This document shows positions 4,175 through 61,728 of a stretch of 64,000 nt of DNA, piece by piece. Under the pieces are notes generated by a model. It was not told the origin of the DNA, made no database searches, and saw nothing but the letters and a program-made list of their open reading frames with translations. Each line of letters begins with the position of its first letter. The stretch's first letter is position 1. A program made the translations under genes and the position numbers. Origin of the DNA: Lachnospiraceae bacterium (GTDB lineage Bacteria > Bacillota > Clostridia > Lachnospirales > Lachnospiraceae); NCBI GenBank assembly GCA_024696945.1, contig JAILGF010000075.1, positions 33,034 to 97,033 on the forward strand, in the 5' to 3' direction.

Positions 4175-5908
4175 ATGGCAGAAAAGAAACTGATGTTGGG
4201 AAACGAGGCCATCGCACGCGGTGCTTATGAAGCAGGCGTTAAGGTTTCGGCCGCATATCCCGGTACTCCCAGCACCGAAATCAGCGAGAATATTGTAAAG
4301 TATGATGAAATCTATTGTGAGTGGTCACCCAATGAGAAGGTGGCTATGGAAGTTGCAATCGGAGCTTCGCTTGCAGGCGTAAGGTCACTTGCTTCAATGA
4401 AGCATGTCGGCGTAAACGTGGCTTCGGACCCTTTGTATACCGTAAGCTACATAGGTGTTACCGGCGGTCTTGTTATCGTGGCGGCGGACGATCCCGGAAT
4501 GTACAGCTCACAGAACGAGCAGGATTCACGTGCCGTTGCACGTGCAGCACATATCCCGGTCATCGAGCCTTCTGACAGTGCAGAAGCTAAGGAATTCATC
4601 AAGTTTGCATATGATATAAGCGAGAAGTACGATACTCCCGTTATGTTCAGGACTACCACACGTATTGCTCATTCACAGGGACTGGTTGAGCTCGAGGACA
4701 GATGCGAGCCCATTGATATCCCTTATGTTAAGAATGCCGCAAAGAATGTTATGATGCCCGGAAATGCCATTAAGCGCCACCCTGTTGTAGAGGCACGTGA
4801 AAAGCAGATGGCTATAGACGGTGCCGATTTCCCCATCAACAGGATAGAGATGAACGATACCAAGATAGGTGTTATTACTTCCGGTATCCCTTATCAGTAT
4901 GTTAAGGAAGCACTTCCCAATGCTTCTGTTCTGAAGCTGGGTTGCGTAAATCCGCTTCCTAAGCAGATGATCATTGACTTTGCAAAGAAGGTTGACAAGC
5001 TTTATATTATAGAAGAACTTGATCCCATTATTGAAGAGCAGGTTAAGTCATGGGGCGTTGAGTGTACGGGTAAGGAAATACTTACCATCCAGGGCGAATA
5101 CAGCACAAATATGCTGAAAAAAGCTATTTTGGGACAGGAACTTGACATTGAGGCCAAGGCTGATGTTCCCGTAAGACCTCCTATCCTTTGCCCGGGCTGC
5201 CCTCACAGAAGTACTTTCTTTACTTTAAACAAGTTAAAGATTCATGCAGCAGGCGATATCGGCTGTTATACCCTCGGTGCCGTTGCTCCTTTGAACGTGG
5301 TTGAGACCACTGTTTGTATGGGTTCTTCCATCTCCACGCTTCACGGAATGGAGAAGGCTAAGGGCAAGGACTATATCAAGGACTGGGTAGCAGTTATCGG
5401 TGATTCGACATTTATGCATACCGGTGTTAACTCTCTTATGAACATGTTCTATAACCAGGGTACCGGTACGGTTCTTATCCTCGACAATTCAACGACCGGT
5501 ATGACAGGACATCAGGACCATGCCGCAACAGGTAAGACTCTTAAGGGCGAGATCGTTCCTGCCATCGATATTTACAAGCTTTGCCATGACGGTATCGGAA
5601 TTGAGAATACAAGGATCGTTAATGCGTTTGATACAAAGGAACTTGAGAAGGCCATTAAGGAAGAGGTGGCAAGAGATGCTGTTTCGGTTATTATCGTTCA
5701 AGCTCCTTGTGCTCTTCTTAAGTCAAATAAGCCGAAGCCCGCGTTCCATATCGATACTGACAAATGTAAGCGCTGCTATATGTGCATGAAGCCCGCATGT
5801 CCCGCTATCACAAAGGCTGAGGACGGCACAGTTTCCATCAATGCTACTATGTGTAACGGCTGCGGTCTGTGCGAGGGGCAGTGTAAATTTGGAGCGATTT
5901 TGAGATAA
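4175..5908 (+). CDS. iorA: Indolepyruvate ferredoxin oxidoreductase alpha subunit
   Basis: ORF from 4154, ATG at 4175 preferred; TPP enzyme 'GDSTFMHTGVNSLMNM', C-terminal 2x[4Fe-4S] CxxCxxCxxxxCP clusters. Confidence 0.95.
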   Translation: MAEKKLMLGNEAIARGAYEAGVKVSAAYPGTPSTEISENIVKYDEIYCEWSPNEKVAMEVAIGASLAGVRSLASMKHVGVNVASDPLYTVSYIGVTGGLVIVAADDPGMYSSQNEQDSRAVARAAHIPVIEPSDSAEAKEFIKFAYDISEKYDTPVMFRTTTRIAHSQGLVELEDRCEPIDIPYVKNAAKNVMMPGNAIKRHPVVEAREKQMAIDGADFPINRIEMNDTKIGVITSGIPYQYVKEALPNASVLKLGCVNPLPKQMIIDFAKKVDKLYIIEELDPIIEEQVKSWGVECTGKEILTIQGEYSTNMLKKAILGQELDIEAKADVPVRPPILCPGCPHRSTFFTLNKLKIHAAGDIGCYTLGAVAPLNVVETTVCMGSSISTLHGMEKAKGKDYIKDWVAVIGDSTFMHTGVNSLMNMFYNQGTGTVLILDNSTTGMTGHQDHAATGKTLKGEIVPAIDIYKLCHDGIGIENTRIVNAFDTKELEKAIKEEVARDAVSVIIVQAPCALLKSNKPKPAFHIDTDKCKRCYMCMKPACPAITKAEDGTVSINATMCNGCGLCEGQCKFGAILR

Positions 5909-58646: not shown

Positions 58647-60497
58647 GTGGAAGATTTTAACATTGAACTTGCAGGCATTCCTTTTAAGGTCAGATGCAGG
58701 TATGGAAAAAACAGAGCTTTTTTTGAAGGCTACTTTACTGAGAAAGAGCCATACTTTACAATTGAACCTACCGATGAGGATATTGCATTTGCCGAGGACG
58801 GGTTTAAACGATTGAACGAAACCGAAGGCTTTCCTCAGGAAGAATATGACGATTGCTTTCTTGAGAATAACGCAATCCATATCCTGGCAATCGATAAACT
58901 GATAGAATATAACGTGCTTATGCTGCACGGGTCGGCTCTTGCAATGGATGGACAAGGCATTATCTTTACCGCAAAGAGCGGAACAGGAAAGAGCACTCAT
59001 GCTAAGCTTTGGAGAGAACTGTTTGGTTCTCGGGTTCAGATGATCAACGACGATAAGCCAATGATCCGCGTTGATGAGATGAAGGCTTACGGTACACCTT
59101 GGAACGGGAAGCATAACCTGAGTACCAATACCTCGGTACCGATCAAAGCAATAGTTAAAATAGAGAGGGCTAAAAAGAACCGGATAAATCCGATCGGCGT
59201 TAAAGAGGCTATGGACCTGTTAATGAAGCAGGTTCAGATATCTAACGATCCGGATAAAGTTGTACTTGCTCTGGAACTCTATGCAAGAGTGATTGAAAAT
59301 GTTAAGTTTTACAAACTCGGATGCAATATGGATCCGGAAGCGGCACGTGTAGCGTGGGAAGAACTGATAGGCCCCCGGAATGCATTCGAATATCTTGATA
59401 CCTTGCGTTCACAGAATACGAAGCAGCGTTATAGCAAGGTAATGGATTACATCGAGACAAAAGCAAGAAAAATGGGAGTGCCGTTAGTCGGTCAATTTGA
59501 ATTAACACCCTTATGCAACCTTGATTGCAAGATGTGTTATGTTCATCTTTCAGGGGACAGACTGCGGGGACAGAAGCTTTTATCTACAGAACAGTGGAAA
59601 GACCTAATGAAGCAGGCCTTTTCTGCAGGGATGATGGATGCTGTACTTACCGGAGGCGAGTGCCTTACATATCCGGGATTTGATGAGCTTTATCTTTACC
59701 TTCAAAGCCTTGGGATACAAAGTACTGTGATGACCAACGGTGTGTTACTGGATGAAAAGAGGCTGGATTTCTTTAGGGAACATCCGTCGGCATGGATACA
59801 GGTAACCCTGTATGGAAACAGTGAAGATGCATACGAACGTGTTACGGGACACAGAGTGTTCAATAAGGTTCTCAGTAATCTGAAAAAGGTAAAAGAATAC
59901 GGTTTTCCTCTTTCCATAAATATTACTCCGAACTCTATTCTGGGTGAGGATATCTTTGAAACGATACGCCTTGCAAGAAGCCTGACAGACGATATAATCA
60001 TATCTACATCGTTATTTACTCTGCCTGGCGAGGAGTGGCGTCTTGACGGACTGACAAAGCTTGATGATGAGTTTATAGCACGGATTTTAAGGTTTGATAA
60101 GGAACTTAGAGGAAAGAAGATCCGCGAAATTCCCGAGAATGAACTTCCTGAGCCCGGGGGACCGAAAAATGCATGCACAGAATGCGGGTTGGAATGCGGC
60201 GGCGGAAGATCGAATTTCGTGCTGGATTGGAAGGGCAGCTTACGTATCTGCAACAGACTGGAGACGAAGAGCTTTCCGATGGATGACGGATTCTTAAAAA
60301 GTTGGAAAGAGATCAACCGGATTGCAAACAACTGGCCGAGAGTTACGGAATGTAAAGGATGTGCATACGAAAAAGTCTGTGATAATTGTGCCGCAAAGCT
60401 TGCACAATACGCAGAACCGGGTGAATACCCTAAAGACTATTGCAGAAGAACAAAGTTCCTGGTGAGCAGGGGAGTGCTTCCTCCACCGGAATGCTAA
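58647..60497 (+). CDS. Fused HPr-kinase-like P-loop domain + radical SAM/SPASM protein (GTG start)
   Basis: N-term 'LMLHGSALAMDGQGIIFTAKSGTGKSTHAKLW...MINDDKPMIRV'; rSAM 'TPLCNLDCKMCYVHL' (CxxxCxxC); SPASM-like Cys array 'CTECGLECGGG...CNR...CKGCAYEKVCDNC...YC'. Confidence 0.92.
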   Translation: MEDFNIELAGIPFKVRCRYGKNRAFFEGYFTEKEPYFTIEPTDEDIAFAEDGFKRLNETEGFPQEEYDDCFLENNAIHILAIDKLIEYNVLMLHGSALAMDGQGIIFTAKSGTGKSTHAKLWRELFGSRVQMINDDKPMIRVDEMKAYGTPWNGKHNLSTNTSVPIKAIVKIERAKKNRINPIGVKEAMDLLMKQVQISNDPDKVVLALELYARVIENVKFYKLGCNMDPEAARVAWEELIGPRNAFEYLDTLRSQNTKQRYSKVMDYIETKARKMGVPLVGQFELTPLCNLDCKMCYVHLSGDRLRGQKLLSTEQWKDLMKQAFSAGMMDAVLTGGECLTYPGFDELYLYLQSLGIQSTVMTNGVLLDEKRLDFFREHPSAWIQVTLYGNSEDAYERVTGHRVFNKVLSNLKKVKEYGFPLSINITPNSILGEDIFETIRLARSLTDDIIISTSLFTLPGEEWRLDGLTKLDDEFIARILRFDKELRGKKIREIPENELPEPGGPKNACTECGLECGGGRSNFVLDWKGSLRICNRLETKSFPMDDGFLKSWKEINRIANNWPRVTECKGCAYEKVCDNCAAKLAQYAEPGEYPKDYCRRTKFLVSRGVLPPPEC

Positions 60498-60559
60498 AGG
60501 TTATAACATGTATGATAATACATGATTAACAATAAATATTTTTTATAGGAGGTAAGAAG

Positions 60560-60760
60560 ATGAAAAAGGAGTATACCGCACCGAAGATCGAGAAGCTTGA
60601 CTTTGATGAGACAGCTACTACTGCTGTTATTTCTTCAATTACACAGCAGCCGGTTATCGAAGATGACAACGACGATGATGATGGAGAGGGCGAGTCCGAC
60701 GGCAAGAAAGGCGATAAAGGAAAAGAAAAGCCCGGTAAAAAGAACGGCTGTAAGAAATAA
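60560..60760 (+). CDS. Candidate RiPP precursor peptide (66 aa)
   Basis: Strong RBS (TAGGAGGTAAGAAG-ATG); YTAPKI leader-like motif; sits between rSAM and PqqD-like genes. Confidence 0.72.
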   Translation: MKKEYTAPKIEKLDFDETATTAVISSITQQPVIEDDNDDDDGEGESDGKKGDKGKEKPGKKNGCKK

Positions 60761-60796
60761 TAGCATTTCTTGAAAGAAATTAACGGAGAAAGAAAA

Positions 60797-61063
60797 GTGA
60801 AAGCATGTAATGGTTTTATCCTCAGAAATATTGTTGGTGAATATATGCTTGTTCCCACTGGCGAAAGAATGAAAAGCTTTAACGGTACTATGATGCTGAA
60901 CGAGCTTGCGGCTTTTGTATGGGAACAGCTGCAGAGCCCAAAGTCCGAAAGCGAACTGCTCAATGCGGTGCTTGCGGAATACGATATTGATGAAGAAACT
61001 GCTTCAGCGGATCTTATGACACTCCTTAAGAAGTTTCAGGGTCTCGGTATTATTGAAGATTAA
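60797..61063 (+). CDS. PqqD-family RRE protein (88 aa, GTG start at 60797)
   Basis: 'MKACNGFILRNIVGEYMLVPTGERMKSFNGTMMLNELAAFVWEQL' typical PqqD; GGAG RBS 8 nt upstream of GTG; track start 60770 (TTG) less likely. Confidence 0.88.
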   Translation: MKACNGFILRNIVGEYMLVPTGERMKSFNGTMMLNELAAFVWEQLQSPKSESELLNAVLAEYDIDEETASADLMTLLKKFQGLGIIED

Positions 61064-61080: not shown

Positions 61081-61118
61081 AAAAAAATCCCTTGGATCTC
61101 TCCAAGGGATTTTTTATT
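61081..61118. terminator. Bidirectional terminator between PqqD gene and ferredoxin gene
   Basis: AAAAAAATCCCTTGGA-TCTC-TCCAAGGGATTTTTT. Confidence 0.9.
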
Positions 61119-61456: not shown

Positions 61457-61728
61457 TGCTGTGAGTTGATAGCGTAGAAGCGTGAGGTTGCTGCAGCGTA
61501 AAAACTGCAGGTTTTTCCGTGGAGCGAATGTCAAGTTTACAAAACTGACGACAAGTCACTGTACAATTGAATTTCTGCCGCGAGCAGATAAACCGTGAGT
61601 AAATCACTGTTTTTCAGCCGGGTCGGACCCGGTATTTAATTTGAGAAGGACATGAAACACACGGGTGAGTGTACAGTCGCCGCTTGTTGTACTTTCCCAA
61701 AAAGTGCGAAAAGGAGGAGACTTTTTTT
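61457..61728 (+). promoter_or_regulatory. Long structured S10-operon leader
   Basis: ~270 nt untranslated, with hairpins such as CCGGGTCGGACCCGG and CTGCAG...CTGCAG. Confidence 0.5.

Follow-up and report, generated by a model that had tools for sequence, protein, structure and literature searches.

A Three-Gene Cassette Encoding an HPrK-like Kinase-Radical SAM Fusion, a Candidate RiPP Precursor, and a Discrete RRE in a Rumen Lachnospiraceae Bacterium

Organization of the Cassette

The 64,000-nucleotide stretch of DNA analyzed here (hereafter the window) belongs to a rumen bacterium of the family Lachnospiraceae with a 3.9 Mb genome that is 86% complete. It contains a cassette of three genes on the forward strand (Table 1), encoding a 616-aa fusion of an HPr kinase (HPrK)-like domain with a radical SAM (rSAM)/SPASM domain, a 66-aa peptide, and an 88-aa discrete RRE of the PqqD family. 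The peptide gene begins 62 bp past the stop of the fusion gene and ends 36 bp ahead of the RRE gene. Since the flanking genes are ordinary (dnaB upstream, ferredoxin and the S10 ribosomal operon downstream), the cassette is considered to consist of these three genes. Neither a leader peptidase, a cyclase, an exporter, nor an immunity gene was found adjacent to it, and a promoter scan of the cassette gave no more sites than shuffled sequences. An S10-Clostridia ribosomal protein leader (Rfam RF03136, 80.7 bits) is located at 61467-61554, upstream of the ribosomal protein genes.

Table 1. Coordinates and basis of the features of the cassette (window positions)
Feature	Coordinates	Strand	Basis
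HPrK-like kinase domain, residues 1-250 of the 616-aa fusion, GTG start	58647..59396	+	fold search and NCBIfam
Walker A AKSGTGKS of the kinase domain	58971..58994	+	35 homologues
Asn-Asp-Asp, residues 134-136 of the kinase domain	59046..59054	+	N134, D135, D136 invariant in 35 homologues
rSAM/SPASM domain, about residues 270-616, stop included	59454..60497	+	Pfam Radical_SAM 3.4e-21
rSAM cluster motif CNLDCKMC (C290, C294, C297; CxxxCxxC)	59514..59537	+	
SPASM first motif C517-x12-G-x4-C535	60195..60251	+	
SPASM second motif C569-x2-C572-x5-C578-x2-C581	60351..60389	+	
Shine-Dalgarno AGGAGG of the peptide gene	60547..60552	+	seven bases before ATG
Precursor peptide gene, 66 aa	60560..60760	+	sequence, profile match, codon comparison, Shine-Dalgarno
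Y5-T-A-P8-K-I10, predicted RRE-binding motif	60572..60589	+	five aligned precursors
Val-Ile-Ser-Ser, residues 23-26, predicted leader cleavage and phosphorylation site	60626..60637	+	prediction
Acidic block, residues 33-46	60656..60697	+	9 D/E, zero K/R
Gly/Lys block, residues 47-66	60698..60757	+	9 K/R, 3 D/E
Cys64, sole Cys of the peptide, proposed rSAM target	60749..60751	+	target predicted
Discrete RRE (PqqD family), 88 aa, GTG start	60797..61063	+	Pfam PqqD 6.8e-16
RRE Asn35, equivalent of LppB N33 (fixes leader Pro)	60899..60901	+	alignment to LppB
RRE Asp72, equivalent of LppB D70 (hydrogen-bonds leader Tyr)	61010..61012	+	alignment to LppB
Terminator-like hairpin ending the cassette	61082..61115	+	15 pairs, T tail

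The Kinase-rSAM Fusion Enzyme

The assignment of the kinase domain was decided by a fold search with its AF2 model (pLDDT 93), in which the 47 PDB matches at E<=1e-3 were without exception PEPCK or HPr kinase structures; the TM-scores were modest, up to about 0.5, and the domain is therefore regarded as a superfamily member and not as a close HPrK. Its NCBIfam matches are weak (ScmC, 2.5e-5; HprK_rel_B, 1.4e-4; HprK_rel_A, 3.5e-4; hpr-ser, 1.3e-3), and a PDB sequence search with the kinase profile returned only weak PEPCK matches. Within the Walker A motif, S111, G112, G114, K115, and S116 are invariant in 35 homologues. The likewise invariant Asn-Asp-Asp is presumably the equivalent of the Ala-Asp-Asp of HPr kinases. 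In the rSAM/SPASM half, the nearest PDB folds are SkfB, PqqE, BlsE, and SuiB, with SkfB ranking best by both structure and sequence. Comparison of the fusion with that of a relative from the same genus (L031) gave a dN of 0.21 and a saturated dS of about 3.8, indicating purifying selection.

Reality and Composition of the Peptide Gene

The peptide reads exactly as described in the original prediction, including the succession of an acidic and a basic block. It contains three Ser residues (Ser25, Ser26, and Ser46), and its only aromatic residues, Tyr5 and Phe15, both lie in the leader. Searches of Pfam and NCBIfam with the peptide found no family. Several observations confirm that this ORF is more than a chance reading frame. 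The window has 97 ORFs of 60-90 aa, and GGAGG precedes the first start codon by 4-18 nt in this one alone. A profile built from four peptides of other genomes, with the window peptide left out, matched this ORF alone in its 3.9 Mb genome (E=1.1e-5), and in about 780 genomes from the same family and class, only two other matches were equally good, both of them true relatives. Leader codons 1-18, compared with those of the nearest relative, include 7 identical, 7 synonymous, and 4 non-synonymous ones. In addition, gene order is kept: fusion, peptide, and RRE follow one another in three other genomes (L031, L075, and L076), of which L075 and L076 are two near-identical assemblies with identical peptides and enzymes. 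Frame conservation, the test on which the original prediction had staked itself, was thus run, and both the frame and the cassette proved to be conserved in relatives.

In a MAFFT alignment of five precursors, Y5, P8, K9, E11, K12, and F15 of the leader are invariant, and the window VISS segment aligns with ILSS, ILTS, ILAS, and ILTS of the relatives, with S26 invariant. The low-complexity polyampholyte C-terminus might suggest an ordinary charged structural or regulatory protein placed between the enzymes by chance, a reading that is contradicted by a leader conserved next to the same enzymes, by synteny, and by the profile match, and that we regard as extremely improbable.

Relatives and Evolution of the Fusion

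Full fusions were found in L031/L089 (same genus, 70%) and in L075/L090 and L076/L091 (62%). The HPrK-rSAM fusions named in the original prediction form a small group, of which three distinct members were found, and most relatives have the kinase and rSAM as separate genes or lack the rSAM. In L092 and L121 (Blautia), kinase and rSAM genes are separate neighbors in clusters of kinase, RRE1, rSAM, peptide, RRE2, TraX, and ABC parts, so that one RRE follows the kinase and the other the peptide; a signal-peptidase-like gene is present in L092. The TraX-like protein is encoded right after RRE2 (L092 8783-9529, Pfam TraX 4.7e-39; L121 8959-9687), and acylation could be a third modification of the L092/L121 product. 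The fusion-bearing and split-cluster relatives are metagenome-assembled genomes.

Because the rSAM tree groups the three fusions (100/99) with L092 and L121 as their sister (91/96), the fusion may have arisen only once, and loss of the first RRE would have accompanied it. Among the 80 closest kinase loci, an rSAM gene lies within 4 kb in 7, versus an SpI-like ORF (by a crude pattern) in 53, which puts the rSAM branch in the minority within a wider population resembling the linear polyphosphorylated peptide (LPP) systems. A small match in G558 (L194), where a short YxxP ORF is absent, was taken as noise.

Several further loci were encountered. In L089, a second precursor-like ORF (MKKWTNAEVIELDVTETSCGGFYWWPWKPSKPKF...; 5634-5831) has an AsnB-like cyclase gene on one side and the fusion gene on the other, so that a lasso-type locus directly adjoins the kinase-rSAM cassette in that genome. 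Lachnospiraceae also contain a second HPrK+rSAM group, which is more divergent and has precursors of 88-146 aa, located in L037 (4237-4569 and 18028-18324), L046 (4206-4472), L077 (6007-6276), L078 (5841-6140), L079 (6400-6840), and L082 (2161-2430). These precursors always end in [FY]xS (LFAS, LFNS, AFNS, AFSS, VFAS, YFQS, YFSS), and several of their loci lie directly downstream of a very large secreted-protein gene; by analogy with paeninodin, the C-terminal Ser could be the kinase target. Short YxxP-leader precursors with leader ends of [IM]xTSG or LMSG occur in L185, L188, L189, L190, and similar loci, adjoining secreted proteins, ABC transporters, or NTP-transferase-like genes and with no close rSAM. 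There are probably many unannotated LPP-like systems of this type in Lachnospiraceae.

A Conserved Core and Its Shortened Version in the Window

The core of the relatives, GD(V/I/K)GRGRG(R/H)GGGCD..P.H...RTFS.GRNS.C, is nearly invariant even though synonymous divergence is saturated (GDVGRGRGRGGGCDGVPYHRNARTFSSGRNSGC in L031, GDVGRGRGRGGGCDGVPYHRNQRTFSSGRNSGC in L092, GDIGRGRGRGGGCDGVPYHRTARTFSSGRNSGC in L121, and GDKGRGRGHGGGCDHIPEHSNARTFSNGRNSNC in L075), while the linker ahead of it varies in length and sequence. L092 and L121 differ over 33 core codons by 20 synonymous and 3 non-synonymous changes, and L031 and L092 by 16 synonymous and 1 non-synonymous changes; this synonymous excess reflects strong selection on the core protein.

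In the window peptide, the leader and the (V/I/L)(T/A/S)S site are kept, as are Gly-Cys and, in diverged form, a Gly/basic stretch. It stops two residues past Gly-Cys, so that the last ~20 core residues are lost, and the relatives compared share no C-terminus with it. Its match to the profile (A4) covers positions 2-55 of 75, comprising the leader, VISS, and the start of the core. By eye, GDKGKEKPGKKNGC, of the form GDKG(K/R)x(K/R)...GC, can tentatively be matched to GDKGRGRGHGG-GC, the first half of the core, with Arg replaced by Lys; the MAFFT gaps fall elsewhere, and the low-complexity C-terminus makes the core register uncertain. The single Cys and the lack of aromatics after the leader, both noted originally, hold for the window member but not for its relatives, whose conserved core has two Cys, Tyr/His, and Phe. 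The short window core is derived, because the full core is present in L031, its sister fusion, as well as in L075, the outer one, and the suggestion that an odd core calls for a different rSAM chemistry loses its footing: a derived, shortened core is no evidence for a separate chemistry.

The window peptide may thus be a degraded or re-purposed substrate, the most conserved part of the core being lost. It could even be a relic, i.e., a decaying precursor that is no longer matured after the lineage lost the true core. The canonical core is present in L031 and L075 and absent here, and a profile search revealed no second precursor with such a core in the window's genome, which is 86% complete, so that one could be missed. 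However, the strong ribosome-binding site, the open frame, the constraint on the leader, and the intact, constrained enzyme and RRE genes make such decay unlikely. A frameshift was also considered, and the other two frames at 60560-60800 bear no resemblance to CDGVPYHRNARTF.

Probable Leader Recognition by the RRE

Linear polyphosphorylated peptides were described from the lpp cluster of Paenibacillus alginolyticus (Popov et al. 2026, PMC13381572), where LppB grips the leader Tyr by D70 and the leader Pro by N33. PbaB1, a Trp-type paeninodin RRE, has Q79 and G42 at the matching positions, and changing Q79 to Asp and G42 to Asn raised the binding of a Tyr leader (PMC13381572). The window RRE aligns with LppB (9x8z) without gaps, placing N35 and D72 at the positions of N33 and D70; the same Asn/Asp pair is present in the second RREs of L031, L075, L092, and L121. 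Since the YxxPxI leader is paired with an RRE of this type, docking of the leader is well supported by sequence, in keeping with the original prediction of a RiPP-type precursor with an RRE-binding leader.

Elsewhere in the same genome (contig C133; L184 2046-10865), a lasso-type locus encodes a Trp-type leader (MKSWETPDM), an HPrK, an AsnB-like cyclase, an RRE lacking both the Asn and the Asp, and an ABC transporter. Also encoded there are an SpI-like peptidase and a 459-aa protein that combines a PqqD domain with a kinase-like region. The rule of Popov et al. on Tyr- versus Trp-leader/RRE pairing appears to be followed inside one genome, and this is the best evidence for docking.

The leader had originally been likened to those of lasso peptides; the LPP system is the closer precedent. 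A kinase, an RRE, and a [Y/W]xxP leader are indeed shared with paeninodin-like lasso peptides, whereas the window leader and RRE are of the Tyr and not the Trp type, and membership of the cassette in the lasso class was rejected since the AsnB-like cyclase and B2 protease are absent and the lasso-type locus has its own precursor. Processing in trans by the cyclase of the C133 locus, which the YxxP leader, the RRE, and the presence of that cyclase in the genome would allow, is very unlikely given that locus's own Trp-type leader and pairless RRE, the absence of a cyclase or B2 protease near the window cassette, and a core that is not lasso-like.

Comparison with Known Systems

By analogy, the window system would work like an LPP system with an added radical enzyme. 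Its leader (Y5TAP8KI10) fits [Y/W]xxPx[L/V/I/F/A], its discrete RRE has the Tyr/Pro-binding Asp and Asn, its core would be linear, with no cyclase, and its kinase is HPrK-like by fold and motifs, although distant from known HPr kinases. Where relatives have kinase and rSAM as separate genes, the clusters are LPP-like, with MsbA-like ABC parts in L092 and L121 and an SpI-like peptidase in L092. On the other hand, an rSAM/SPASM enzyme is added and, in the window, fused to the kinase, and the core is nearly invariant among the relatives of the window peptide. Moreover, the window leader YTAPKIEKLDFDETATT is off the spacing of the full LPP consensus, YxxPxVLxHQxIxFETxxS (PMC13381572), and lacks HQ, the cassette has no SpI leader peptidase, and no NTP transferase or MsbA-like exporter lies beside it. 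Because the peptidase, transferase, exporter, and full leader consensus are absent in the window, the system is set apart from LPP proper.

The SynChlorMet (Scm) cassette has the same three kinds of components (ScmC, ScmD of the PqqD type, and the rSAM proteins ScmE/ScmF). ScmC may itself be HPrK-like, because it is the best NCBIfam match of the kinase domain (2.5e-5). However, the Scm models score far under their cut-offs (23.8/125, 14.2/100, and 46.2/400) in a comparison that covered ScmC, ScmD, and ScmE/ScmF. We know of no kinase-rSAM fusion in a SynChlorMet cassette, and a literature search found no open paper on this system. The fold and cluster motifs are those of the rSAM/SPASM RiPP maturases SkfB, PqqE, and SuiB, whereas the window enzyme differs in its substrate core and its N-terminal kinase domain. 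An rSAM/SPASM maturase is likewise shared with sactipeptides and ranthipeptides, but the window core has only one Cys.

Proposed Maturation Pathway

Taken together, the 66-aa peptide is most probably (probability about 0.7) a RiPP precursor that docks on the RRE and is modified by the fusion enzyme, with phosphorylation predicted at Ser25/26 and radical chemistry near Cys64. The YxxPxI leader would be bound by the RRE from the gene immediately downstream, which would hand the peptide over to the 616-aa enzyme from the gene immediately upstream. The kinase domain would most likely phosphorylate Ser25/Ser26 in V-I-S-S, as LppK does on Ser3 of the LPP core, and the rSAM domain would most likely modify the Gly-Cys (Cys64) at the end of the Gly/basic stretch, a Cys thioether being the first guess for the product. 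Since the cassette has no peptidase, leader cleavage would occur in trans, with an SpI-like peptidase from another locus of the genome cutting near VISS; one such gene lies at C133 inside the lasso-type locus. Export of the product is likewise presumed.

Regarding the kinase target, LppK accepts Ser and refuses Thr at its site in its own substrate (PMC13381572), leaving Ser25, Ser26, and Ser46 as candidates. Of the Thr/Ser targets proposed originally, Ser25/26 therefore hold up, Ser26 being aligned in all relatives, while the Thr residues of TATT are less likely. Two precursors of the window's genus, encoded with a kinase gene but no rSAM (L033 and L034), share ILSSTGE with L031 and lack the GRGRG core, which was seen only where an rSAM is present. 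The kinase/cleavage segment can consequently be separated from the rSAM segment, and the putative site of kinase action and cleavage is placed in (I/V)(L/I)(T/A/S)S, that of rSAM action in the Gly/basic-Cys core. Gly-Cys is common to all five core-family precursors, and Cys also occurs in both L032 precursors and in that of L110; it is the only core side chain typical of known rSAM RiPP chemistry that these five share. The precursor at L150, whose rSAM is the most divergent of the group, lacks Cys, and the case for Cys as a target in every member is the weaker for it.

A product that is only phosphorylated, as in LPP, would arise if the peptide served the kinase half and the rSAM half were inactive on it. 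This fits the loss of the conserved post-Cys half, which co-occurs with rSAM, and the similar leaders of the L033 and L034 precursors; with all rSAM and SPASM motifs intact and the fusion under purifying selection, it seems quite unlikely, and the doubly modified precursor is preferred.

Biological Implications

No description of a natural kinase-rSAM fusion acting on a RiPP, or of its core, was found in the open-licence literature, and the window peptide appears to belong to a doubly modified kind not described before in bacteria. More broadly, the chances seem evenly balanced that it represents a RiPP class in which one bifunctional HPrK-like kinase-rSAM/SPASM protein equips one RRE-presented linear peptide with a Ser phosphate as well as a radical modification, most members having a nearly invariant GRGRGRGGGCDGVPYHRNARTFSSGRNSGC-type core and making one conserved product. 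The cassette links the new LPP family to rSAM maturation, and with three genes, three Ser, and one Cys, it offers an unusually simple test of phosphorylation-radical coupling on one peptide. The nearly invariant core suggests a housekeeping, signaling, or surface role and no diversifying antibiotic, and such constancy among relatives speaks for one fixed function within gut Clostridia as opposed to a diversifying toxin.
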